A stretch of DNA of 64,000 nt from Aeromonas eucrenophila (GTDB lineage Bacteria > Pseudomonadota > Gammaproteobacteria > Enterobacterales > Aeromonadaceae): positions 62,001 through 126,000 of the forward strand of contig NZ_CDDF01000008.1 in NCBI RefSeq assembly GCF_000819865.1, given 5' to 3'. Below the pieces are notes generated by a model, which searched no databases, was not told the origin of the DNA, and was given only the letters and a program-made list of their open reading frames with translations. This document shows positions 4,774-56,995 of the stretch, one piece after another; within the stretch, counting starts at the first letter, position 1; each line of letters starts with the position of its first letter. The position numbers and the translations under genes were made by a program.

Positions 4774-6201
4774 TTATTTCTTCTTCTTGGCCTTGGCGTT
4801 CGGCAGATCGGTGATGGATCCTTCGTACACTTCGGCAGCCAGACCCACGGACTCGTGCAGAGTCGGGTGAGCGTGGATGGTCAGCGCCAGATCTTCAGCG
4901 TCGGCACCCATCTCGATGGCCAGACCGATCTCACCCAGCAGCTCACCACCGTTGGTACCGACGATGGCACCACCGATGACGCGATGGCTGTCCTTGTCGA
5001 AGATCAGCTTGGTCATGCCGTCGGAGCAATCGGACGCGATGGCACGGCCGGAAGCAGCCCAGGGGAAGGTGGCGACTTCGAAGTTCAGGCCCTGTTGCTT
5101 GGCTTCCTTCTCGGTCAGACCAACCCAGGCCATCTCTGGCTCGGTGTAGGCGATGGACGGGATCACTTTCGGGTCGAAGTAGTGCTTCTTGCCGGCGATG
5201 ACTTCGGCCGCCACGTGGCCTTCGTGCACACCCTTGTGGGCCAGCATCGGCTGACCGACGATGTCACCGATGGCGTGGATGTGAGCGACGTTGGTACGCA
5301 GCTGCTTGTCCACTTCGATGAAACCGCGCTCGTTGACGGCAACACCGGCTTTCTCGGCGTCCATCAGCTTGCCGTTCGGCACACGACCGACCGCGACCAG
5401 CACGTTGTCGTAGCGAACCGGCTCGGCCGGAGCGTGCTTGCCTTCGTAGGAGACGTACAGACCGTCGGCGCGCGCCTCAACTGCGGTGACCTTGGTCTCC
5501 AGCATGATGTTGAATTTCTTGGCGACTCGCTTGGTGTAGATCTTGACGATGTCTTTGTCCGCAGCCGGTACCAGCTGATCGGCAAATTCCACCACGTCGA
5601 TCTCGGAACCCAGGGAGGAGTACACGGTACCCATCTCCAGGCCGATGATGCCGCCACCGATGACCAGCAGCTTGCCCGGTACGGTAGTCAGTTCCAGCGC
5701 ATCGGTCGAATCCCATACGCGCGGATCATCATGGGGGATGAAGGGCAGCTTCACCGGGCGGGAACCCGCAGCGATGATGGCGTTATCGAAGGTCACGGTA
5801 GTCTTGCCTTCATCCCCGGTCACTTCCAGCGTGTTTGGGCCGGTGAACTTGCCGAAGCCGTTCACAACCTGGACTTTACGCATCTTGGCCATGCCGGCCA
5901 GACCGCCGGTCAGCTGGTTGATGACCTTCTCTTTCCACAGACGCACCTTGGTGATGTCGGTCTGGGGAGCACCGAAGACGATGCCGTGATCGGCCAGCGC
6001 CTTGGCTTCTTCGATGACTTTGGCGACGTGCAGCAGTGCTTTGGACGGGATGCAGCCCACGTTCAGGCAGACGCCACCCAGGGTGGAGTAACGCTCGACG
6101 ATAACGGTATCCAGACCCAGATCGGCGGCACGGAAGGCAGCGGAATAACCGGCAGGGCCAGCACCCAGTACCACGACCTGAGTTTTGATTTCTTTACTCA
6201 T
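4774..6201 (-). CDS. lpdA: dihydrolipoyl dehydrogenase (E3)
   Basis: FAD flavoprotein that reoxidises dihydrolipoyl groups of the pyruvate dehydrogenase complex, and normally also 2-oxoglutarate dehydrogenase and the glycine cleavage system, passing electrons to NAD+. The 475 residues show the N-terminal FAD motif GAGPAG (about 14-19), redox cysteines in GGVCLNVGC (Cys45 and Cys50), a second nucleotide fold GGGIIGLEMG, and the catalytic His-Glu region HAHPTLHES near the C-terminus. Two adjacent ATGs occur; 6201 has the better spacing to AAAGAGGTC. It follows aceF after a hairpin-containing 147-base gap, so it may be expressed both by readthrough and from its own promoter, as in E. coli. Confidence 0.97.
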   Translation of the reverse strand: MSKEIKTQVVVLGAGPAGYSAAFRAADLGLDTVIVERYSTLGGVCLNVGCIPSKALLHVAKVIEEAKALADHGIVFGAPQTDITKVRLWKEKVINQLTGGLAGMAKMRKVQVVNGFGKFTGPNTLEVTGDEGKTTVTFDNAIIAAGSRPVKLPFIPHDDPRVWDSTDALELTTVPGKLLVIGGGIIGLEMGTVYSSLGSEIDVVEFADQLVPAADKDIVKIYTKRVAKKFNIMLETKVTAVEARADGLYVSYEGKHAPAEPVRYDNVLVAVGRVPNGKLMDAEKAGVAVNERGFIEVDKQLRTNVAHIHAIGDIVGQPMLAHKGVHEGHVAAEVIAGKKHYFDPKVIPSIAYTEPEMAWVGLTEKEAKQQGLNFEVATFPWAASGRAIASDCSDGMTKLIFDKDSHRVIGGAIVGTNGGELLGEIGLAIEMGADAEDLALTIHAHPTLHESVGLAAEVYEGSITDLPNAKAKKKK

Positions 6202-6354: not shown

Positions 6355-8250
6355 TTACAGAACCAGTCGACGAATGTCGGACAGCACACCACTCAGGGTG
6401 GTGATGAAGCGAGCACCGTCGGCGCCGTCGATGACGCGGTGGTCATAGCTCAGGGCCAGCGGCAGCATCAGGCGAGCCTCAAACTCCTTGCCGTTCCACT
6501 TCGGTTTGAAGTCGGACTTGGAGACACCGAGGATGGCCACTTCCGGCGCGTTGACGATCGGGGTAAAGCTGGTACCGCCGATGCCACCCAGGCTGGAGAT
6601 GGTGAAGCAACCGCCCTGCATGTCGGCAGCGGTCAGCTTGCCGGCACGGGCCTTCTTGGAGATCTCGGCCAGGTCGCGGGACAGCTCATGGATACCCTTC
6701 TTGTTGACGTCGCGAACGACCGGGACCACCAGGCCCCCCGGGGTATCTACCGCCACACCGATGTGGATGTACTTCTTCATGATCAGCTTGGTGCCGTCTT
6801 CGGACAGGGCGCTGCAGAAACGTGGGTGCGCTTCCAGGGCCTTGGCGGCGGCTTTCAGGATGAACACCAGCGGGGTGATCTTCACGTCCAGCTTCTGCTT
6901 CTCGGCCAGCTGGTTCTGCTCTTTGCGGAACGCTTCCAGCTCGGTGGTATCGGCTTCGTCGAACTGGGTGACGTGCGGGATCATGGCCCAGTTGCGATGC
7001 AGGGCAGGACCGGAGATCTTCTGGATCCGGGTCAGTTCCAGCTCTTCGACCGGACCGAACTTGCTGAAGTCCACCTTCGGCCACGGCAGTACGCTCATGC
7101 CGTTGCCAGTACCGGTACCGGCAGCAGGTGCGGACTCGGCACGCTTGACCGCATCCTTCACATAGGCCTGCACGTCTTCTTTGACGATGCGACCCTTGCG
7201 ACCCGAGGCTTTCACCTTGGCCAGGTTGACGCCGAACTCACGAGCCAGACGGCGCACGGCCGGGGAGGCGTGGACATAGGCATCGTTCGCAACGAAGTCG
7301 GAAGAAGCGGCAGCAGGAGCGGCGGCCTGAGCAACCGGCGCAGCGGCAGCAACAGGTGCGGCAACGGGAGCAGCAGCCTGAGCAACCGGGGCGGCTGCAG
7401 GCGCGGCGCCAGCCACTTCGAATACCATGATCAGAGAACCGGTAGAGACCTTGTCGCCCGCCTTCACCTTGATCTCTTTGACCACACCGGCGAACGGCGC
7501 AGGCACTTCCATGGAGGCCTTGTCACCTTCGACCGCGATCAGGGACTGGTCGGCTTCGACCTTGTCACCCACGGCGACCATGATCTCGGTCACTTCCACT
7601 TCGTCACCGCCGATGTCCGGCACGTTGACTTCTTTGGCGGCGGCAACGGCAGGCGCAGCAGCCACAGGGGCGGCAGCCTGAACCGGCGCAGCCACGGCAA
7701 CCGGAGCGGCACCAGCCACTTCGAATACCATCACCAGGGAACCGGTAGATACCTTGGCGCCGGCGGCAACCTTGATCTCGACCACGCGGCCCGCGAACGG
7801 CGCCGGCACTTCCATGGAGGCCTTGTCACCTTCCACGGCGATGATGGACTGGTCGGCTTCAACCATGTCGCCAACGGCAACCATCAGCTCGGTCACTTCG
7901 ACTTCATCGTCACCGATGTCCGGCACGTGCACGTCTTTGCGGGCGGCAGCAGCGGGGGCAGCCGGCGCGGCGGCGGCAACCGGGGCAGCAGCCTGGACGG
8001 GAGCCGGAGCGGCGGCACCTTCGGCTTCGAAGATCATGATCTGGGAACCGGTGGCAACCTTGTCGCCCACCTTGATCAGGATCTCTTTGACGATACCGGC
8101 GGCAGGGGCCGGTACTTCCATGGAGGCTTTGTCACCTTCCACGGCGATCAGGGACTGGTCCAGTTCGACCTTGTCACCCACGGCGACCATGATCTCGGTC
8201 ACTTCAACTTCATCGGCACCGATATCCGGCACCATAATCTGTTTGGACAT
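6355..8250 (-). CDS. aceF: pyruvate dehydrogenase E2, dihydrolipoyl acetyltransferase
   Basis: Core of the pyruvate dehydrogenase complex; moves the acetyl group from lipoyl arms to coenzyme A. The 631 residues contain three N-terminal lipoyl domains, each with the modified lysine in [12 protein letters not shown] (about Lys41, Lys143 and Lys244), separated by Ala/Pro-rich flexible linkers. A peripheral subunit-binding domain follows (about 325-365; [14 protein letters not shown]), then the catalytic domain with [10 protein letters not shown] (His about 604). Three lipoyl domains is the E. coli-like arrangement. The ATG at 8250 is preceded by AAGAGGA nine bases upstream. It lies downstream of aceE across an unusual repeat-bearing spacer. 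Confidence 0.97.
7412..8247 (-). repeat. three tandem lipoyl-domain coding repeats within aceF
   Basis: The three lipoyl domains appear as direct DNA repeats about 303-306 bases apart; for example the strand-complement block starting ACTTCCATGGAGG recurs near 7505, 7808 and 8114. Protein-level homogeneity of the domains suggests ongoing gene conversion. Confidence 0.85.
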
Positions 8251-8264
8251 TGTGCTTTATCCTC

Positions 8265-8366
8265 TTACGCGTACGTTTATCGCGTTAACCCTGGCAGCCC
8301 CATATCCGGCACTTTCTGCCTGGATACAGAACTTTATCCTCTTACGCATCTGTCGCGTTAACCTTG
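8265..8366 (-). repeat. repeated aceE 3'-end motif in the aceE-aceF spacer
   Basis: On the minus strand the aceE end reads AAGGTTAACCCGCTG...GCATAAGAG. Two similar blocks follow in the spacer: AAGGTTAACGCGACAGATG CGTAAGAGGATAAAG (about 8366-8333) and AGGGTTAACGCG...ACGCGTAAGAGGATAAAG (about 8298-8265). The last copy supplies the aceF ribosome binding site AAGAGGA. They look like degenerate duplications of the aceE terminus. The rest of 8251-8483 holds the hairpin at 8444-8474. Confidence 0.6.
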
Positions 8367-8443
8367 GCAAGGGTCCGTTTGGCATATAAACCACTACAAA
8401 AACGGATAATGTCCCTTGCTTCTACTGTCACTGAACCGGGCAA

Positions 8444-8474
8444 GACGCTGTCCGGCGCAATGCCGGACAGCGTC
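8444..8474 (-). other. perfect inverted repeat just downstream of aceE
   Basis: GACGCTGTCCGGC / GCCGGACAGCGTC (13-bp stem, 5-base loop) lies 10 bases past the aceE stop. No T-run follows on the minus strand, so it is more likely an mRNA-stabilising or attenuating hairpin than a full terminator, given that aceF must be expressed downstream. Confidence 0.75.
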
Positions 8475-8483
8475 TCCGTTCTC

Positions 8484-11144
8484 TTATGCGTACAGCGGGT
8501 TAACCTTGTCGGCATCGATGCCGTATTTGGCGATGGCGTCGGCCACAACCTGCTTGTCGATCTCACCGCGCTTGGCCAGTTCGGTCAGGGCAGCAACGAC
8601 GACGTAGAACTCGTTCACTTCGAAGTGACGACGCAGGTTGGCACGGCTGTCGGAACGGCCATAACCGTCGGTACCCAGTACACGGTAGTTCTCGGTCGGC
8701 ACGAAGGCACGCACCTGCTCGGCGAAGGACTTCATATAGTCGGTCGCGGCGATGGTGGCTTCGGAACCCAGCACCGAGGTGATGTAGGGTACGCGGGCGG
8801 CAGCGGTCGGGTGCAGCATGTTCCAGCGATCGGCGTCCTGACCATCACGAGCCAGCTCGTTGAAGGAGGTGACGCTGAACACGTCGGAACCGACGCCGTA
8901 CTCGCTTGCCAGGATCTGGGCGGCGGTACGCACGTGGCCCAGGATGGAGCCACAACCCAGCAGCTGTACCTTGGCCTTGTTACCGGCCACGGATTCCAGC
9001 TTGTAGATACCCTTGCGGATGCCTTCCTCGGCGCCTTCCGGCATGGCCGGCATGGCGTAGTTCTCGTTCAGGGTGGTGATGTAGTAGAAGACGTTCTCAG
9101 GCTTCTCACCGTACATGCGACGCAGACCGTCCTGCACGATCACCGCTACTTCATAGGCGTAGGACGGATCGTAGGAGATGCAGTTCGGGATGGTACCGGC
9201 CAGGATGTGGCTGTGACCATCTTCGTGCTGCAGACCTTCACCGTTAAGAGTGGTACGACCGGAGGTCGCGCCCAGCAGGAAGCCACGGGCTTGCTGGTCA
9301 CCGGCTGCCCACGCCATGTCGCCGATCCGCTGGAAGCCGAACATGGAGTAGTAGATGTAGAACGGGATCATCGGGCAATCGTTGGTGCTGTAAGAGGTCG
9401 CAGCAGCCAGCCAGGAGGACATGGCGCCCAGCTCGTTGATACCGTCTTGCAGAACCTGACCCTGCTTGTCTTCCTTGTAGTAGGAGACGATGTCGCGGTC
9501 TTGCGGGGTGTATTGCTGACCGTGCGGGCTGTAGATGCCGATCTGACGGAACAGACCTTCCATCCCGAAGGTACGAGCTTCATCAGCCAGGATCGGAACG
9601 ATGCGCTTGCCGATGGACTTGTCTTTCAGCAGCACGTTCAGGGAACGCACGAACGCCATGGTGGTGGAGATCTCACGTGCCTGCTCACCCAGCAGCGGGC
9701 CGAAGGCATCCAGCGCCGGGATTTCCAGCTTGGTGGTGCTCTCACGCAGACGGGTCGGTACATAACCCTTCAGCGCGGCACGACGGGCGTGCAGGTACTT
9801 GTGCTCTTCGGTACCCTCTTCGATCTTCAGATACGGCAACTCTTCCAGCTGCTCGTCGGTGACCGGCAGGCTGAAACGATCGCGCAGGTGACGCACTGAG
9901 CCCAGATCCATCTTCTTGACCTGGTGAGCGATGTTCTTGCCTTCGGCCGCTTCGCCCATGCCATAACCCTTGATGGTCTTGGCCAGGATGACAGTCGGCT
10001 TGCCCTTGGTCGCAGCAGCCTTGGAGAAGGCGGCGAACAATTTACGGGGGTCGTGACCACCGCGGTTCAGGGCGAAGATCTCCTCGTCGGTCATGTCTTT
10101 GACCAGCGCGGCGGTTTCCGGATAACGGTTGAAGAAGTGCTCACGCACATAACCGCCGTCACGGGACTTCATGGTCTGATAGTCGCCATCCACGGTTTCG
10201 TTCATCAGCTGGATCAGCTTGCCGGAAGTGTCTTTCTTCAGCAGCTCATCCCACTTGCGACCCCAGATGACCTTGGTGACATCCCAGCCGGCGCCGGAGA
10301 ACAGGCCTTCCAGCTCGTTGATGACCTTGCCGTTACCGACAACAGGACCGTCCAGACGCTGCAGGTTGCAGTTGACCACGAAGACCAGGTTGTCGAGCTT
10401 TTCACGCACGGCAACGGTCAGGGCACCCTTGGCTTCCGGCTCGTCCATCTCGCCGTCACCCAGGAAGGCGTAAACGGTCTGCTCGGAGCAATCCTTGATA
10501 CCACGGTCGGTCAGGTACTTCAGGAAGCGAGCCTGATAGATGGCGGCGATGGGGCCCAGACCCATGGAAACGGTCGGGAACTGCCAGAAGTCCGGCATCA
10601 GTTTCGGGTGCGGATAGGAAGGGATACCCTTGCCGTCCACTTCCTGACGGAAGTTGTCCAGCTGCTCTTCGGTCAGACGACCTTCGGCGAACGCACGGGC
10701 GTAGATGCCCGGGGAGATGTGACCCTGGAAGTAAACCAGATCGCCACCGTCTTTCTCGCTGCGAGCGCGGAAGAAGTGGTTGTAGCAGACTTCATAGATG
10801 GTCGCGGAAGAGGCGAAGGAAGACATGTGACCACCGAGGTCCAGATCTTTCTTGGAGGCACGCAGCACTATCATCATGGCATTCCAGCGGATGATGGCGC
10901 GGATGCGGCGTTCCATTTCCAGGTCGCCCGGGTAAGCCGGTTCGTCGCTGGCAGGAATGGTGTTGATGTAGTCGCGATTTGCCTTTTCAGCCACATCGAC
11001 ACCGCTGATGCGGGCCTTCTCAGCAAGCTGTTCAAGGATGAACTGAGCGCGTTGCGGACCCTCTTCACGCAGCAGGGATTCCAGAGAGGCAAGCCACTCC
11101 AGCGTTTCTATCGGGTCCACATCGTTCTTCAGGATATCAGACAT
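8484..11144 (-). CDS. aceE: pyruvate dehydrogenase E1 component (homodimeric type)
   Basis: Thiamine diphosphate enzyme of 886 residues that decarboxylates pyruvate and acetylates the lipoyl groups of AceF. The length and the start (MSDILKNDVDPIETLEWLASL) match the E. coli-type homodimeric E1. The thiamine-binding motif is visible as GDGEMDEPEAKG (around residue 230) with NCNLQ some 30 residues later. The ATG at 11144 has AGGAACC upstream at suitable spacing. It lies 69 bases downstream of pdhR in the same orientation, so PdhR very likely controls it from the promoter upstream of pdhR. The end is followed by a strong hairpin and a repeat-containing spacer. Confidence 0.97.
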   Translation of the reverse strand: MSDILKNDVDPIETLEWLASLESLLREEGPQRAQFILEQLAEKARISGVDVAEKANRDYINTIPASDEPAYPGDLEMERRIRAIIRWNAMMIVLRASKKDLDLGGHMSSFASSATIYEVCYNHFFRARSEKDGGDLVYFQGHISPGIYARAFAEGRLTEEQLDNFRQEVDGKGIPSYPHPKLMPDFWQFPTVSMGLGPIAAIYQARFLKYLTDRGIKDCSEQTVYAFLGDGEMDEPEAKGALTVAVREKLDNLVFVVNCNLQRLDGPVVGNGKVINELEGLFSGAGWDVTKVIWGRKWDELLKKDTSGKLIQLMNETVDGDYQTMKSRDGGYVREHFFNRYPETAALVKDMTDEEIFALNRGGHDPRKLFAAFSKAAATKGKPTVILAKTIKGYGMGEAAEGKNIAHQVKKMDLGSVRHLRDRFSLPVTDEQLEELPYLKIEEGTEEHKYLHARRAALKGYVPTRLRESTTKLEIPALDAFGPLLGEQAREISTTMAFVRSLNVLLKDKSIGKRIVPILADEARTFGMEGLFRQIGIYSPHGQQYTPQDRDIVSYYKEDKQGQVLQDGINELGAMSSWLAAATSYSTNDCPMIPFYIYYSMFGFQRIGDMAWAAGDQQARGFLLGATSGRTTLNGEGLQHEDGHSHILAGTIPNCISYDPSYAYEVAVIVQDGLRRMYGEKPENVFYYITTLNENYAMPAMPEGAEEGIRKGIYKLESVAGNKAKVQLLGCGSILGHVRTAAQILASEYGVGSDVFSVTSFNELARDGQDADRWNMLHPTAAARVPYITSVLGSEATIAATDYMKSFAEQVRAFVPTENYRVLGTDGYGRSDSRANLRRHFEVNEFYVVVAALTELAKRGEIDKQVVADAIAKYGIDADKVNPLYA

Positions 11145-48513: not shown

Positions 48514-48906
48514 TTAGCGAGGATGGCGCGCCATCGCTTCCCAGCCTTCTTTCAGCTCCAGCAGGATGCGGCGTACCTCGGCAAAGCCAGCCACATCGTT
48601 GGCCACGCTGATCTCGAACAGGCGTTGCCCGCAATAGTCGTACAGACGGTGCAGATTGGTGGCCAACTCTCCCCCCTTGTCCATGTCGAGGGCACTGTCG
48701 AGCCCCCCCAGGATCTGCAGGCACTTGTTGATGGATAGCCCTTTGCGTTCGTACTGTTTGGCCAGGATGTGGCCCTCTGCCCGCGCGACCTCGTCGAGCA
48801 GACCATCCATCAGCATCAGCACCAGTTGGTGCGGATCGGCACTCGCCGCCTTGGCCTGGGTGGCGGCGAACTGGTAGGCATCGTAGCCATCTTGGGGTTC
48901 AAACAT
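48514..48906 (-). CDS. lafC: lateral flagellin export chaperone LafC (FliS-like)
   Basis: Cytoplasmic chaperone that binds the flagellin C-terminus and prevents premature polymerisation. The 130 residues show the FliS pattern: YQFAATQAKAASADPHQLVLMLMDGLL near the start and LHRLYDYCGQRLFEISVAND later. It follows lafB after 39 bases. Confidence 0.93.
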   Translation of the reverse strand: MFEPQDGYDAYQFAATQAKAASADPHQLVLMLMDGLLDEVARAEGHILAKQYERKGLSINKCLQILGGLDSALDMDKGGELATNLHRLYDYCGQRLFEISVANDVAGFAEVRRILLELKEGWEAMARHPR

Positions 48907-50344: not shown

Positions 50345-51208
50345 TTAACGCAGCAGGGAAGTCACCATGCCGGTCATCTGGTTGGAGTTGGACAGCACAG
50401 ACATGCCAGCCTGCATCAGCATCTGGTTCTTGGTCATGCTGGTGCTCTCCTGAGCAAAGTCGGCATCCATGATGCGACCATTAGCCAGATCGGTGTTCTC
50501 TTTCATGTTGGAGAGGTTGTTTACGGTGTGCTCCAAGCGGTTGATGTTGGCACCGAAGGCGGAACGCGCGTCACCGATCCCCTTGGAGAAGGTATCCAAC
50601 TCGGCCATGGCGGCGGTGGCCTTGGTCTGGTCGTCGATACCGGCAGCAACGGCAGTGCCCTTGGTACCTTTATCATCGGCAACTACACCCTTGAGGGCAG
50701 TCGCCAGGGCTCCATCGTCCTTGAGCTCCAGCTTCTCGGCACCGGTACCACCGATCTGGAAGGTCACGGCTTTCTGGAAGCCGGAATCCTTGGCCAGCAG
50801 GGTCTGACCAGCGAAGGTGGTGTTGTTGGTGATGTTGTCCAACTCGGCACGCAGTTCGGTGAACTCGGCATTCATCGCCTTGCGATCGTCAACGGTGCTG
50901 GTGCCGTTCGCAGACTGAGTGGCCAGATCCTTCATACGCTGAACGATGTTGCTCATCTCGTCCATGGCGCCTTCGCCGGTCTGCATCATGGAGATGGCAT
51001 CCTGGGCGTTACGCATGCCCACTTTCTGGCCGCTGGACTGAGCTTGCAGACGGGTTGCCATCTGCAGGCCGGCGGCGTCATCGGCGGCAGAGTTGATGCG
51101 CAGACCGGTACCCAGACGCTGCATGGCAGTGCCCAGCATCTTGTTGGTGGAGTTCAACTGGCTCTGAGTAGTCAGCGAGGCGAAATTAGTGTGAATGGAC
51201 AAACCCAT
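50345..51208 (-). CDS. lafA: lateral flagellin (second copy)
   Basis: Structural subunit of the lateral filament, 287 residues. Conserved N-terminal ([19 protein letters not shown]) and C-terminal ([18 protein letters not shown]) D0/D1 helices flank a short variable core (about 128-212). It is nearly identical to the other lafA at both ends but differs in the core, which reads [18 protein letters not shown] here. GAGGAG precedes the ATG at good spacing, and a small hairpin with T6 lies directly upstream of that site. The gene is separated from the upstream copy by a terminator-like hairpin and a pyrimidine-rich leader. In A. caviae two lateral flagellins are known. Confidence 0.95.
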
Positions 51209-51389: not shown

Positions 51390-52253
51390 TTAACGCAGCA
51401 GGGAAGTGACCATGCCGGTCATCTGGTTGGAGTTGGACAGCACGGACATGCCAGCCTGCATCAGCATCTGGTTCTTGGTCATGTTGGTGCTCTCCTGAGC
51501 AAAGTCGGCATCCATGATGCGACCGTTCGCCAGATCGGTGTTCTCTTTCATGTTGGAGAGGTTGTTGACGGTGTGCTCCAAACGGTTGATGTTGGCACCG
51601 AAGGCGGAACGAGACTCACCAATCTTCTGGGAGAAGGTGTCCAGCTCGGCCATGGAAGCGGTTGCCTTGGCCTGATCGCCGATACCTACCTTGACGGCAG
51701 CACCATCGGTACCCTTGCCGGTACCCACAACTTCTGCCAGCGCCTTTGCTAGGGTGCCGGTTTTCTTCAGTTCCAGCTTCTCAGCAGAAGTACCACCGAT
51801 CTGGAAGGTCACATCCTCCTGGAACCCCTTGCCAGTCTTGAGCAGCTCTTGTCCGCCGAAGGTGGTGTTGTTGCTGATGTTGTCCAGCTCGGCGCGCAGC
51901 TCGGTGAATTCGGCGTCCATGGCCTTGCGATCATCAGCTGTGCTGGTGCCGTTGGCAGACTGAGTGGCCAGATCCTTCATACGCTGAACGATGTTGCTCA
52001 TCTCGTCCATGGCACCTTCACCGGTCTGCATCATGGAGATGGCATCCTGGGAGTTGCGCATGCCCACTTTCTGGCCACTGGACTGGGATTGCAGACGGGT
52101 TGCCATCTGCAGGCCGGCGGCGTCATCGGCGGCGGAGTTGATGCGCAGACCGGTACCCAGACGCTGCATGGCGGTACCCAGCATCTTGTTGGTGGTATTG
52201 AGTTGGCTCTGGGTGGTCAGAGAAGCGAAATTGGTATGAATGGACAAGCCCAT
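51390..52253 (-). CDS. lafA: lateral flagellin (first copy)
   Basis: Lateral filament subunit, 287 residues, the promoter-proximal copy. N-terminal residues 1-127 and C-terminal residues 213-287 are almost identical to the second copy. The core (about 128-212, with [20 protein letters not shown]) is lysine-rich and more diverged. No cysteine is present. GAGGAA precedes the ATG. It is divergent from the flagellin methylase gene across a 207-base spacer in which I could not find a convincing sigma-28 match. Confidence 0.95.
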
Positions 52254-52460: not shown

Positions 52461-53624
52461 ATGGCCGCCTCTCTCTACACCCCTCACTTCGTTAAACATT
52501 TCCAGTGCATAGGCGATCGCTGCGAGGACAACTGCTGTCATAGCTGGACCATCAGCATCGACAAGATAACCTTCCGCAACTACGAGCGACATCCGGACCT
52601 TGCCGTCAGATCCTTGAGCAAATTGCACATTCGCAAGGTGAAGCAGAGCAACGAGCATTGGGGGGAGATCCAGCTTGATGAGCAGGGAGCCTGCCCCTTC
52701 CTCGATGAAAACCGTCTGTGCCAGATTCACAGCAAGGCCGGAGCAGAGGCGCTGAGCCACACCTGCAAGACCTACCCCAGAGCCCATTCACGCATCGGCA
52801 ACCAGGTCAGGAAGTCCCTGATGCTCTCCTGCCCCGAGGTCTGCCGGCAGCTGTTGCTAGACCCCATGGCGATGCAGACCGAGGTGGCCGAGTTGGAGCA
52901 ACGCCTGCCGTTCGCGCCACCCCCCCCTGCCGCCATGGCGACCCTGCACAGCCTGAGCATCCATGTGCTGGCAGCCACGGATGTCCCCGTCGAGATACGA
53001 CTGTGGCTCATCGGCATGCTGGTCCACCGGGATCCCGCCCAGCTGTCACACGAAGCCTTCCTGGATCAGGTGGCCGTGCTGGCCGAACGGGGAGAGCTGC
53101 TTGCCATGTTCGAGCAACTGCCGGTCTTGCCGCGGTTGCAGTGGTGGGGGCTGCGTACCATCACCCATCAGCTGCTGGCCTATTCAAAGGGACGGCGGGG
53201 GCGGCAGACCATGCAAGGCTGCCTCGACAAGATCAATCTGCTGCTGGAGGGAGTATATGATGAAGCCAAGCTCACCCAGCTGCAGCAGATCTGGTACAGC
53301 AAGGTCTCGTCTTTCCTCGCGGCTCGTCCCCAGATCATGAACAACTACCTGCTCTACTACGTCTATCATCACAACTTCCCGCAGTTGCAGGGCTCGCCAC
53401 ACCAGGCCTATCAGTTCCTGGTAGTGGACTACTTCCTGCTGCGCAGCTACCTCTGTTTGCTGGCCATGGACAAGGAGCTGGAAGAGCAGGATGTCATCAA
53501 CCTGTTCTACAGCTACCACACCATACGCCAGCACAACGCAAGCTTCCTCAAGACCATAGAACAGGGATTGAGCGAGTCTGGCTTCGCATCGGATCTCAGC
53601 CTTTACGCCTTGCTCAAGCCCTAA
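52461..53624 (+). CDS. fliB: flagellin lysine-N-methylase FliB
   Basis: Predicted enzyme of 387 residues that methylates lysines on flagellin, as FliB does in Salmonella. The N-terminal cysteine-rich signature is intact: Cys16, Cys21, Cys25 and Cys26 in CIGDRCEDNCCHSWT, then Cys78, Cys87 and Cys102 (GACPF, RLCQIH, HTCKTYPR) and Cys124/Cys128 (LSCPEVCRQ). These are likely metal or iron-sulphur ligands. The C-terminal half is helical with no obvious membrane segment. It is divergent from the two lafA genes, so LafA is the probable substrate. The ribosome binding site is weak (ACCGGACAGCGAC). A strong terminator follows. Confidence 0.88.
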   Translation: MAASLYTPHFVKHFQCIGDRCEDNCCHSWTISIDKITFRNYERHPDLAVRSLSKLHIRKVKQSNEHWGEIQLDEQGACPFLDENRLCQIHSKAGAEALSHTCKTYPRAHSRIGNQVRKSLMLSCPEVCRQLLLDPMAMQTEVAELEQRLPFAPPPPAAMATLHSLSIHVLAATDVPVEIRLWLIGMLVHRDPAQLSHEAFLDQVAVLAERGELLAMFEQLPVLPRLQWWGLRTITHQLLAYSKGRRGRQTMQGCLDKINLLLEGVYDEAKLTQLQQIWYSKVSSFLAARPQIMNNYLLYYVYHHNFPQLQGSPHQAYQFLVVDYFLLRSYLCLLAMDKELEEQDVINLFYSYHTIRQHNASFLKTIEQGLSESGFASDLSLYALLKP

Positions 53625-53626
53625 AG

Positions 53627-53656
53627 AAAACCGCCAGCAAATTGCTGGCGGTTTTT
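53627..53656. terminator. bidirectional terminator after fliB
   Basis: AAAACCGCCAGC / GCTGGCGGTTTTT with an AAATT loop directly past the fliB stop. The A-run on one side and T-run on the other let it also end the convergent flgL-side transcript. Confidence 0.93.
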
Positions 53657-53678: not shown

Positions 53679-54680
53679 TTAGGTCAGCAGGGCCACCACG
53701 TTCTGGCGCGATACGTTGGCCTGGGCCAGCAGGCCGGACATGGTGCCCATGAAGCCACCCTCCTTGAGCTGCAGACTGAGTTTGCCTTGCAGTTGTTCCA
53801 GCTCTTCCTGCTGCACGTTCTGGCTACGGACCTTGACCCTGTCCAGCTGCTTGACCATCTTCTGGCGGAACTGCTTCAGCTCCCGCACCGACTGCTCAAT
53901 TTCGCCGAGCAACCGCTTCAGCCGTTGTTGCTCCTGCTTGAGCTCCCCCTTGTCGAGCCCCTCTCCAAGCTGGGTGAGCTGGCCGGCCTTGGGTTTGAAC
54001 TGCACCGGAACCGGGTTGCCCGCCGGGATGCGGATCCCCTCTCCGCTCAGCAGCACGGGTTCATCCAGCTTGCGCCTGTGCTGATCCGGCACGCTCAGCT
54101 CCAGCTTGCCCAATTCGTTCAGTCGGGCCTGGATATGCTCCTTGCGCAGGGCCCGATCAATACGGGAAGCCGCTTCCACTTCATTGGTGCCGGCAGGCAG
54201 TTGCACCTCGACGGCGCTGCTGGTCTGGGGAAATGAAAAGATCAATCGCTCGGCACTCGATCTCGGGCTCAACAGATCGAGTCGTTCCGCACTGTAACTC
54301 ACTCGACTGTCATTGGCCGACGCCAGCAAGCGGGGTTTGAGTTCAGTGGTCAAGGGAGCCTTCGGCTGGGTCAGCTTCTCTTCCAGCAGCTTGAGACGGG
54401 AAACAAGCTCGCTGCTCGCAGCCCGGTTCTGGCCAAGCTGTTGCTCCAGGCGCTTAAGTTCCCCCCAGACCTGACTCAGGGCCTGTTCACCACTCTGGGC
54501 CTGGGCGATACGCTGCTGCGCCGTGCCGATCAGGGCCCAACGATCCAGTCGGATGACATTGGGCTGGCGCTCGCTGCGGCTGACCTGAGGAGAAGAAGCC
54601 TGGGCAGTTGGACGTCCGTGCAGCTTGGGTTGAGCGGGCGTTTCGGCCACCCCGCCCGGACGGGTTTGTTGAATCTGCAT
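53679..54680 (-). CDS. unrecognised coiled-coil protein with flagellin-like C-terminal tail
   Basis: I do not recognise this 333-residue protein as a named family. It lies 18 bases downstream of lateral flgL in the same orientation, so it is probably expressed with the hook-filament junction genes. Visible parts: a Gln/Pro-rich N-terminus (about 1-40), a first coiled coil (about 55-107), a compact middle domain (about 138-225, starting AERLIFSFPQTSSAVEVQ), a second strongly charged coiled coil (about 235-300), and a C-terminal end LLAQANVSRQNVVALLT. That end resembles the D0 C-terminal helix of bacterial flagellins (LAQANQxPQNVLSLL type). No flagellin N-terminal helix is present. It may be a secreted filament-associated protein or assembly factor; this is inference. 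Confidence 0.75.
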   Translation of the reverse strand: MQIQQTRPGGVAETPAQPKLHGRPTAQASSPQVSRSERQPNVIRLDRWALIGTAQQRIAQAQSGEQALSQVWGELKRLEQQLGQNRAASSELVSRLKLLEEKLTQPKAPLTTELKPRLLASANDSRVSYSAERLDLLSPRSSAERLIFSFPQTSSAVEVQLPAGTNEVEAASRIDRALRKEHIQARLNELGKLELSVPDQHRRKLDEPVLLSGEGIRIPAGNPVPVQFKPKAGQLTQLGEGLDKGELKQEQQRLKRLLGEIEQSVRELKQFRQKMVKQLDRVKVRSQNVQQEELEQLQGKLSLQLKEGGFMGTMSGLLAQANVSRQNVVALLT

Positions 54681-54698: not shown

Positions 54699-55598
54699 TT
54701 AGGGCATGTAGTTGAACAGACTGAGCCCGTTCACCTTGGCGAACGCCTGCTGCTGTACCTGCAGGGCCATCAGCACATGAGCCTGCTGGGTCACCGCCCC
54801 CGCGTAATCGAGGGACTCTATCTGATTGCTCACTTCCTTGCTATAGACACTCTTCTCCTCATGACCCTCATCGACCTGATCCAGCAGGTTGATGCGCGCA
54901 CCGATGGAGCTGACCATCTGGCTGATGTCATCTTGCAAGGTTTGGCTGCGATCCAGCATGGCCCTGGCCTGATCCGCGGCATCCGCGGCACCGCTGTCGA
55001 AGGCGGCCACCATCTCGTCGAGCTGCTTGAAGAAATCCCCGTTCTGGATAAACAACTTGTCCGCGGTGTGATTGAGCTCCACCGTCACCCCTCTGGCGAT
55101 GCCGACCTCACGCACCAGCGCATCCCCTTGGTAGACATAATCACCACCTGGGCCCTTTACGATAGTGGTTTTATCCACCTGGCTGCCACTAAACAGACTG
55201 GAACCACTCTCGTTACGGGCATTGGCCAGATCCAGCAAGCCGTCCTTGATGATCGCCACTTCGCTGGAGACGGCCCGGCGATCGTCCTCCGACAAGGAAC
55301 CGTTGGCTGCTGTCTGGGCCAGATCCCGCAGCCGACCCAGCATGTTGGTCATGGTATCGAGCTGGATTTCCCCCTGGGAAAGCTGGCTCTTGGCATTGGC
55401 GATGTTCTTCTGGTACTGCGCCATCGCCGCCTGCTCTTTCTTCAAGCCGAGCAGTTGCACGCTGCCGACGGGATCGTCGGAGGGCTGTAGGATCCGCTTG
55501 TTGGCCGAGATCTGGCGATCGAGCCGGGCATACTCACCGAAACCATGTTGCAGATTGTCGAGCATGCTGAGCTGAATTTGGTTGGTACTGATACGCAT
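54699..55598 (-). CDS. flgL: lateral flagellar hook-filament junction protein FlgL (LfgL)
   Basis: Second junction protein (HAP3) between hook and filament; 299 residues. The N-terminal helix MRISTNQIQLSMLDNLQHG and the C-terminal ALQVQQQAFAKVNGLSLFNYM are family-typical. The region around its start is part of a 67-bp tandem duplication shared with the flgK end. Its ATG is preceded by GGGGGTC, an unusual but possible binding site. Confidence 0.93.
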   Translation of the reverse strand: MRISTNQIQLSMLDNLQHGFGEYARLDRQISANKRILQPSDDPVGSVQLLGLKKEQAAMAQYQKNIANAKSQLSQGEIQLDTMTNMLGRLRDLAQTAANGSLSEDDRRAVSSEVAIIKDGLLDLANARNESGSSLFSGSQVDKTTIVKGPGGDYVYQGDALVREVGIARGVTVELNHTADKLFIQNGDFFKQLDEMVAAFDSGAADAADQARAMLDRSQTLQDDISQMVSSIGARINLLDQVDEGHEEKSVYSKEVSNQIESLDYAGAVTQQAHVLMALQVQQQAFAKVNGLSLFNYMP

Positions 55599-55702
55599 GC
55601 GACCCCCGTCAGAACATGTTCAGAATGGAATTGAAGAGCTGGATTTGATTGGTGCTGATATTCATACCGGCCTCATCAGAACATGTTCAGGATGGAGTTG
55701 AA
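55569..55702 (-). repeat. 67-bp diverged tandem duplication across the flgK/flgL junction
   Basis: Two adjacent 67-base units on the minus strand (55702-55636 and 55635-55569). Each consists of the last 27 bases of flgK (TTCAAxTCCATxCTGAACAT...TGA), a 10-base spacer, and the first 30 bases of flgL (ATGxxxATCAG...CTC). The units differ mainly at third codon positions and in the spacer (TGAGGCCGGT versus CGGGGGTCGC). Confidence 0.9.
55609..55665 (-). CDS. chimeric 18-codon micro-ORF between flgK and flgL
   Basis: The first duplication unit begins a frame at ATG 55665 that reads through the flgL-like start into the flgK-like end and stops at 55609, giving MNISTNQIQLFNSILNMF. GAGG lies four bases before the ATG, so translation is possible. 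It is most simply a by-product of the duplication, yet almost all differences from its parents are synonymous. Function, if any, is unknown. Confidence 0.35.
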   Translation of the reverse strand: MNISTNQIQLFNSILNMF

Positions 55703-56995
55703 GAGTTGATCCGAGGTGCTGATCACCTTGGCGTTGGCTTGATAAGCCTTGGTATACGCCATGATCTTGACCCCTTCCTCATCGGTGTTGACCCCGCTGA
55801 CACTGCTGAGCTTGGTGGCAAGCTGCTTCTCCATGTTGGCGTCCGCCTCCATGGTCGCCTTGCCTTGACCACTCTGTACCGCCATGCGGCCGAGCAGCGC
55901 ACTGTAGGCGTCATACTGGCTGTCCTTGATGGTCAGCAGCTCCTGCAAGTTGCGGTTATCACCATTGCCGCCCCCCGCCTTGGCAAAGGCCAGGTGATTA
56001 CCGGTAAAGCCAGCCGCCACCTTGAGGGTGCCGGACGGATTGAGGGGGTCGTAACTGAACATGGGTTTGCCCGGATCACCGTTCAGATCGACCCCGCCCG
56101 CCTGCTTGGCATTGAAGTCATCCGCCAGCTTCTTCGCTATCTGGTTGAGTTCATCGCGCAGGGGGCGCAACACAGTGGTGCGATACTCCAGCACCCCGGC
56201 CAGGGTCCCCCCTTGCAGCTTGGGGACCTCGAAAGACTGCGGTCCAAAGCTGAGGCTCAGGGTGTCGCCGACGAGGGAGAGGGTACTGCTGCTGCCCGAC
56301 AGCACCAGAGGCTGACCCTGGGGCAGGCTCAACGAGAAGGAGCCATTCTCCTGCCGGTTGACGCGCACCTCCATGAAGGTGGAGAGCTCGCGCACGACCT
56401 GTTCGCGGCTGTCTTCCAGGGCCGACGTATTGACCCCCTTGGACGCCTGCTCGCTGATCTGGGTATTCAGCTCGGCCACCTGCTTCAGGTAGCTGTTGAC
56501 CTGGGTGACCGTACTGTTCAACTGATCATCGATCTGCTTCTCCTGGGTCAACAGGCTCTCGTTCAACTGACCGAAACGGTTGGCAAGGGCGCCGGCGGAA
56601 CTGACGATCTGACTGCGCTGTGCCGGTGTCTCCGGACTGTCGAGCGCGGCGTTGAGAGAGGCAAAGAAGCTGTCCAGCCCCTTGGCGATGTTCATCGACT
56701 CACTGCCAAGCAGCTGCTCAGTGGTATTGATGTACTGATGAAACGCATAGGATGAACCGGTTGCGGAGCGGCTGCGCCAGTGCTGGGAAACCAGATAATC
56801 ATCGGTGATCCGGCGTACCCCGGTCACTTCCACGCCCATGCCGTTATCCAGCCGACCAAAGCCGGACAGACTGCCCATCATGGCCTCCTGGCGGCTGTAG
56901 CCGATGGTATTGACGTTGGCAATATTCTGGGCGGTGACGTTGAGCGCGATCTGGGCCGCATTCAGTCCACTAAAACCGATATTGAGCAGCGACAT
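55676..56995 (-). CDS. flgK: lateral flagellar hook-associated protein FlgK (LfgK)
   Basis: First junction protein (HAP1) on the hook; 439 residues. It has the rod/hook N-terminal motif NIGFSGLNAAQIALNVTAQN followed by NVNTIGYSRQ, and the C-terminal KAYQANAKVISTSDQLFNSI. The ATG overlaps the flgJ stop by one base (TGATG). The 3' end is repeated in the downstream spacer. Confidence 0.95.
   Translation of the reverse strand: MSLLNIGFSGLNAAQIALNVTAQNIANVNTIGYSRQEAMMGSLSGFGRLDNGMGVEVTGVRRITDDYLVSQHWRSRSATGSSYAFHQYINTTEQLLGSESMNIAKGLDSFFASLNAALDSPETPAQRSQIVSSAGALANRFGQLNESLLTQEKQIDDQLNSTVTQVNSYLKQVAELNTQISEQASKGVNTSALEDSREQVVRELSTFMEVRVNRQENGSFSLSLPQGQPLVLSGSSSTLSLVGDTLSLSFGPQSFEVPKLQGGTLAGVLEYRTTVLRPLRDELNQIAKKLADDFNAKQAGGVDLNGDPGKPMFSYDPLNPSGTLKVAAGFTGNHLAFAKAGGGNGDNRNLQELLTIKDSQYDAYSALLGRMAVQSGQGKATMEADANMEKQLATKLSSVSGVNTDEEGVKIMAYTKAYQANAKVISTSDQLFNSILNMF

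Follow-up and report, generated by a model that had tools for sequence, protein, structure and literature searches.

In axial flagellar proteins, an N-terminal D0 region pairs with a C-terminal one. Such pairs have been described for FlgG, FlgE, and flagellin; the same work proposes that flagellin-like contacts allow FlgL to seat flagellin (PMC6155364). The Salmonella hook and filament are separated by two layers of 11 subunits each, built from FlgK and FlgL, whose D0 domains line the channel (PMC12221982). The published gene order of the Flag-2 system is lfgL–lafW–lafZ–lafA, in which LafW is labeled a "putative hook-associated protein" (PMC6993521, PMC7526173). An open reading frame (ORF) of 333 aa at 53679–54680 (minus strand) in a 64,000-nucleotide stretch of Aeromonas eucrenophila (contig NZ_CDDF01000008.1; the window hereafter) is, as judged by sequence comparison, the Aeromonas counterpart of LafW of Escherichia coli Flag-2. 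Its ATG lies 18 bp past the stop codon of the lateral flgL gene on the same strand. An earlier note on this DNA, which gave no strand, had placed it next to lateral flgL and called the protein unnamed, a description superseded by the name LafW in the Flag-2 literature.

LafW and its co-occurrence with lateral-type flgL

The E. coli gene following flgL (product WP_001195951.1, 325 aa; locus L044) is annotated as "hypothetical protein" in RefSeq and is LafW because of its place in the published order. BLASTP of window LafW against this protein recovers only a 22-residue N-terminal piece (E 0.058), and a profile is required: profile A1, made from 16 homologs without that of E. coli, aligns to E. 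coli LafW in hhalign with a probability of 93.6% and an E-value of 2e-7 (for this one comparison) over 253 columns (profile 60–333). E. coli LafW alone finds LafW of genome G349 (E 6.9e-7).

LafW accompanies lateral-type flgL in the genomes checked, as seen in surveys at two taxonomic levels. A search with window LafW yields a single copy in A. eucrenophila and a match in 29 of 75 Aeromonadaceae genomes. When the same 75 genomes are searched with the window lateral FlgL, 30 are set apart by full-length matches (E ≤ 1e-37), and all 30 have LafW. In the thirtieth (G037), LafW lies right after flgL and is too diverged for the first search; it was found by profile in a local search (L131:7810-8814, E 1.8e-10). 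No LafW at E ≤ 0.001 was obtained from the 45 genomes without lateral-type flgL. Among them, G073 encodes a FlgL of greater distance (1.1e-19), and the 14 kb inspected there contain no LafW.

At the order level, 394 genomes were searched with LafW and FlgL profiles. Lateral-type FlgL is present in 51 of them at E ≤ 1e-65, a cut-off fixed after the list had been seen (next match, 4.5e-61) and applied to a profile (A5) whose 18 members all come from LafW-bearing loci, which may put any lateral flgL lacking LafW at a disadvantage in score. Fifty of the 51 have LafW at E ≤ 1e-10, and in the remaining genome (G751) LafW lies about 3.9 kb from flgL, making 51 of 51 (including 16 Aeromonadaceae that are counted in both surveys). 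LafW at E ≤ 1e-10 was found in none of the 343 other genomes, with at most about five candidates scored per genome. Nine order-level genomes have LafW-profile matches between 2.5e-4 and 1e-3; the five inspected were found to hold flagellins.

The thirteen LafW loci from named genomes are all Aeromonas. In a Vibrio campbellii record, lafW directly follows the lateral flgL, and LafW occurs in 6 of 100 genomes of one further family, tentatively "Burkholderiaceae-like." Class-wide searches gave matches in 7 of 369 genomes with A1 (five of them weak and chance-like) and in 3 of 339 with E. coli LafW, one of which (G349) is taken as real.

Flagellin-like build of LafW

The sequence and structure comparisons support LafW as a flagellin-family axial protein with D1N, an IN-motif domain, D1C, and a D0C-like tail, in which a disordered segment replaces the N-terminal D0 helix (D0N). 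The gene and the regions of its product are as follows, with confidence in the predicted structure given as predicted local distance difference test score (pLDDT):

53679..54680, minus strand: lafW, whole ORF, 333 aa; ATG start, homologs found
54558..54680, minus strand: residues 1–41, disordered N-terminus replacing the flagellin D0N helix (pLDDT about 30; composition; alignments)
54369..54557, minus strand: residues 42–104, D1N-like helices, with Q62 invariant in 24 of 24 members (profile matches to flagellin D1N; structure model)
54006..54269, minus strand: residues 138–225, flagellin/FliD IN-motif domain with a GEGxRxPAG loop (PF07196 in ortholog L020; Foldseek of the domain alone)
53763..53981, minus strand: residues 234–306, D1C-like helices (structure model; profile alignment)
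53682..53762, minus strand: residues 307–333, D0C-like tail, with low model confidence (profile matches to flagellin C-termini; tail test)

The absence of the flagellin N-terminal helix, claimed in the earlier note, is borne out by the predicted structure, in which pLDDT is below 50 over residues 1–46 and the first helix starts at residue 42; no helix is predicted in the N-terminal 40 residues, and an N-terminal D0 helix like that of flagellin was not found there. In the full-length flagellins shown, no profile alignment begins before residue 19. The start is rich in Pro and Gly: the first 40 residues contain a median of 6 (range 2–12) in 59 distinct LafW proteins, vs. 2 (0–8) in 83 flagellins and 3 (0–7) in 60 FlgL proteins, with starts set mechanically and overlapping ranges. 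The protein begins MQIQQTRPGGVAE; its first 13 residues are largely conserved in 13 Aeromonas sequences, less so in L018 and L020, and could serve as an export signal.

In the structure model, the compact middle is a β-β-α-β-β unit (residues 144–196). Two coiled coils around such a middle had been described in the earlier note; the compact middle stands, and the flanking helices, rather than being foreign additions, form with it a series collinear with flagellin D1N, IN motif, and D1C. The C-terminal end is LLAQANVSRQNVVALLT. In the 24 members of the family alignment, only M1, Q62, G191, and L332 are invariant, and L331 is nearly so. Loss of the tail in orthologs, a point raised earlier, is partial: by patterns devised after the alignments had been viewed, the terminal [RKS]xx[VA]xx[LA][LM] is kept in 56 of 59 distinct LafW proteins and an AQAN-like pattern in 45 of 59 (the 14 exceptions include two with TQAN), AQAN being absent from the Burkholderiaceae-like proteins and those of rearranged loci.

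Window LafW alone reaches no Pfam or NCBIfam cut-off; only sub-cut-off families, mostly coiled coils, appear, and no established family outside the flagellar ones is matched with confidence, an outcome that the earlier note had kept in view. It is not matched by Pfam Flagellin_N, Flagellin_C, or PF07196 (Flagellin_IN), by TIGR02550 (FlgL), or by the FliD family models of Pfam and NCBIfam, and phmmer against PDB gave nothing significant. PF07196 is passed by the Aeromonas ortholog L020 (34 bits vs. a cut-off of 22.7, residues 198–239) and matches L131 LafW more weakly (E 0.026); these two are the matches at E ≤ 10 among 24 LafW members. Comparison by hhalign of the LafW profile with flagellin, FlgL, FlgK, and FliD profiles gave P-values of 0.083, 0.2, 0.02, and 0.039, which are not significant, with alignments located on the tails for flagellin and on the IN-motif region for FliD. 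Since the single-sequence and hhalign tests are not significant, the kinship rests on family profile, collinearity, and folds together.

The best PDB match of A3, a LafW family profile of 24 members, is flagellin 9atl (E 0.0022 for the whole sequence; 0.57 and 2.3 for its two pieces singly), with columns 14–104 aligned to flagellin residues 26–125 and columns 172–339 to residues 216–392, the last being the final flagellin residue. At E ≤ 10, 31 of 43 PDB matches are flagellins; the second-ranked is a keratin. Against six flagellins from other genomes (L159–L164), picked because A3 had matched them, E-values are 3e-7 to 4.1e-5 within that set. Three collinear pieces (D1N, IN motif, and C-terminus) are present in four of the six, L159 being without the N-terminal piece and L164 without the C-terminal one. 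The D1N region is aligned in five (L160–L164); taken alone, the D1N piece has an independent E-value (i-E) of 4.8e-4 in the L089 flagellin and 5.2 in that of L162. Columns from about 240 to 339 (D1C and D0C) align to the flagellin C-terminus, up to the last residues, in five (L159–L163), in agreement with the D0-like C-terminus that had been noticed earlier.

Among 1679 distinct ORFs, the non-LafW matches of A3 at E ≤ 0.1 are 30 flagellins, one FlgL, and five others, with E-values of 1.2e-6 to 3.4e-5 for the flagellins of L159, L160, L161, and L163; the matched flagellins are mutually related, and these matches are not independent trials. When loci pre-selected by an earlier match to A1 or A3 are removed (the six flagellins of L159–L164 and four others, L046–L049), 24 of 26 matches are flagellins, one is FlgL, and one is another protein. 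Five column-shuffled A3 profiles matched no flagellin at E ≤ 0.1 and one FlgJ at 0.0062, and the reversed profile matched one FlgL at 0.08. For a tail test, 37 distinct flagellin tails were made into a profile and compared with the C-terminal 60 residues of 1368 distinct ORFs, in which flagellar loci are over-represented: of the 40 best rows other than flagellins, 39 belong to LafW, FlgL, or FlgK, and the LafW tails among them have E-values of 0.03–1.4 each, singly not significant. The family profile A3 is the stronger evidence for tail kinship.

The Foldseek comparisons suggested in the earlier note cover the full protein and residues 138–225. In Foldseek of the LafW model, rows 1–23 are all flagellins (best E 1.7e-3), and chains of the Salmonella hook–filament junction 9go6, by length probably FlgL, rank below them. 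For the middle domain alone, FliD chains 6sih and 5h5w are among the eight best rows.

Gene order around lafW and the Plesiomonas "maf-5" gene

In the first set, lafW comes directly after flgL and on its strand in all 27 loci; in 11 of 14 further LafW loci it directly follows flgL, and the count is 38 of 42 over all inspected loci, L176 included. In L166, L177, and L179, lafW is about 4 kb from flgL, beside ORFs read as fliG and other assembly genes; in L176, it is clustered with fliF-, fliG-, fliH-, and fliI-like ORFs (read from translations), with FlgL about 8 kb off. Retention of lafW after relocation argues against mere hitch-hiking. L166, L177, and L179 are rearranged lateral systems (one is a second system in G632) and have an oppositely directed ORF of 690–710 aa between lafW and lafA. 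L176 has a ParM/actin-like ORF (8165-9172, read from its translation) between the fliI-like gene and lafW.

The neighbors of lafW in the window are:

55676..56995, minus strand: flgK of the lateral system, 439 aa, labeled from position and translation (flgK-related ORFs precede flgL in 27 of 27 loci)
54699..55598, minus strand: flgL of the lateral system, 299 aa, directly upstream of lafW (TIGR02550)
53628..53654, minus strand: 12-bp hairpin after lafW, a possible bidirectional terminator common to lafW and the convergent fliB (folding)
52461..53624, plus strand: fliB, flagellin lysine N-methylase, convergent to lafW and between lafW and lafA (NF038110)
51390..52253, minus strand: lafA, lateral flagellin copy (NF038071)
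50345..51208, minus strand: lafA, lateral flagellin copy (NF038071)
48514..48906, minus strand: lafC, FliS-type chaperone and possible partner of LafW (PF02561)

The order past lafW is hairpin, fliB, the two lafA copies, and then lafB–lafC onwards. The hairpin came from folding; a terminator scan listed none after lafW. The two lateral flagellin genes adjoin each other in the window, and four stand in a row in genome G009 (locus L065).

The slot between lafW and lafA holds fliB in some Aeromonas, as in the window, and a Maf-type gene in others (L032:7053-8339 and L039:7049-8332; PF01973 at 1.4e-33 and 4.2e-35); it hosts two flagellin-modification types in one place. The PF01973 model, which we take to mark true Maf (motility accessory factor) proteins, does not match window LafW. 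In A. salmonicida subsp. salmonicida (L036:5998-8337), lafW and the next maf are fused in one open frame of 779 aa, the maf part of which (352–779) shares 91% identity with maf of L032. The two genes are separate and intact in L032 and L039, and an open frame as long as that of L036 is present in L011.

In Plesiomonas shigelloides, a 349-aa gene between flgL and lafA has been named "maf-5," and in the same account its product has 15% identity to Aeromonas Maf-5 and is without classical Maf domains (PMC4481668). In genome G548 (L173, probably Plesiomonas), 10 of 13 comparable protein lengths equal those in the table of that paper, including the 349 aa of LafW (L173:6056-7105); the lengths of FlgI, LafA, and LafE differ by 2, 1, and 6, respectively. 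At 5792, L173 has a site that differs from the published forward primer at one base, and the reverse primer was not found in L173 with up to two mismatches. Given the same cluster, the lengths, and the primer match, Plesiomonas "Maf-5" is almost certainly LafW, and the name is an error in print.

Possible roles and comparison with known axial proteins

With a chance a little short of even, LafW is exported with the hook-associated proteins and acts at the hook–filament junction, where it would add a layer or serve as an adaptor between FlgL and LafA. LafW would be made with FlgK and FlgL from one operon, exported early via the lateral export apparatus, and seated on or beside the FlgL ring, beneath the first turn of LafA. 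The D0C helix of LafW would line the channel, with D1 packed quasi-homotypically and the IN domain turned outward. Loss of D0N would stop LafW from polymerizing far; long polymers are thus improbable, in keeping with a low-copy part. The place of its gene beside flgK–flgL and its restriction here to the lateral class agree with a flagellin-like layer or adaptor added at the junction. The broader proposal, somewhat more doubtful, is that lateral flagella have an obligatory third junction layer or adaptor beyond FlgK and FlgL, a flagellin descendant minus the N-terminal D0 helix that marks the whole lateral/Flag-2 class; if so, the assembly order becomes hook–FlgK–FlgL–LafW–filament. The earlier note was right to envisage a possible exported filament or junction factor.

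Alternatively, LafW might be a minor or tip component, acting with the cap protein LafB (FliD) or placed sparsely in the LafA filament and setting its shape or length. This is unlikely, albeit with several points in its favor: the middle domain resembles that of FliD as well as that of flagellin in Foldseek, the hhalign alignment with FliD (not significant) falls on the IN-motif region, and whole A3 scores at least 8 bits with 21 of 28 polar-type flagellins vs. 5 of 33 lateral ones, classes that were assigned by tail motif and are partly circular, with 17 of 83 flagellins in neither and five pre-selected polar ones excluded. The position of lafW directly after flgL in most loci and the lack of a D0N for stable packing speak against it. 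That lack would suit a protein secreted through the lateral flagellum and acting outside the filament, since LafW has a flagellin-like fold without one polymerization helix, as a counterpart to FlaC of Campylobacter, a non-structural flagellin (PMC5466977); however, the close pairing with the lateral system points to a machine part rather than cargo, and secretion of this kind is distinctly improbable.

Scarcely better or worse placed, and if anything a shade less probable, is a cytoplasmic role in which LafW, through its flagellin-like tail, would compete for the FliS-type chaperone LafC or act as its decoy, and would time LafA export. FliS chaperones bind flagellin C-termini, and in five of six flagellins the match of the LafW profile runs to the very C-terminus; however, D1N and the IN domain, not obviously needed by a decoy, are kept across the family alignment, and AQAN is lost in some orthologs. 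That LafW is a Maf-type motility accessory modification factor, as the label of its Plesiomonas counterpart implies, is hardly credible, given the absence of classical Maf domains and the low identity reported with that very label, the separate PF01973 gene found after lafW in both of the Aeromonas loci tested, and the lack of a PF01973 match in window LafW.

No functional test of lafW was found in the literature searched (lafW, Flag-2, lateral flagella, VPA0275), a search that left most subscription papers outside and does not prove absence from print. Going by gene numbering, VPA0275 is probably LafW; vpa0264–vpa0275 were deleted together in one study (PMC4870561), and the lateral cluster is counted only to VPA0274 in another (PMC6963403). 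A conserved axial protein without D0N, confined here to genomes with lateral-type flgL, would be an unrecognized junction part or a repurposed flagellin.

Among known proteins, E. coli LafW shares with window LafW the place after flgL, a similar length, and a profile match over most of the length; however, identity is 17%, and the GEGxRxPAG loop and AQAN are not retained in E. coli. The IN-motif domain is not present in all flagellins. Flagellin (FliC/LafA) has D1N, IN motif, D1C, and D0C in the same order as LafW (in four of six flagellins), whereas LafW is without the D0N helix and without a Flagellin_N or Flagellin_C match. FlgL (hook-associated protein 3, HAP3) differs in having no significant sequence similarity to LafW (hhalign P 0.2), and window FlgL ends in LSLFNYMP. 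FliD (HAP2) shares the IN-motif fold, in its D2 domain, with the LafW middle, but differs in overall build and tail and is encoded by a separate gene, lafB.
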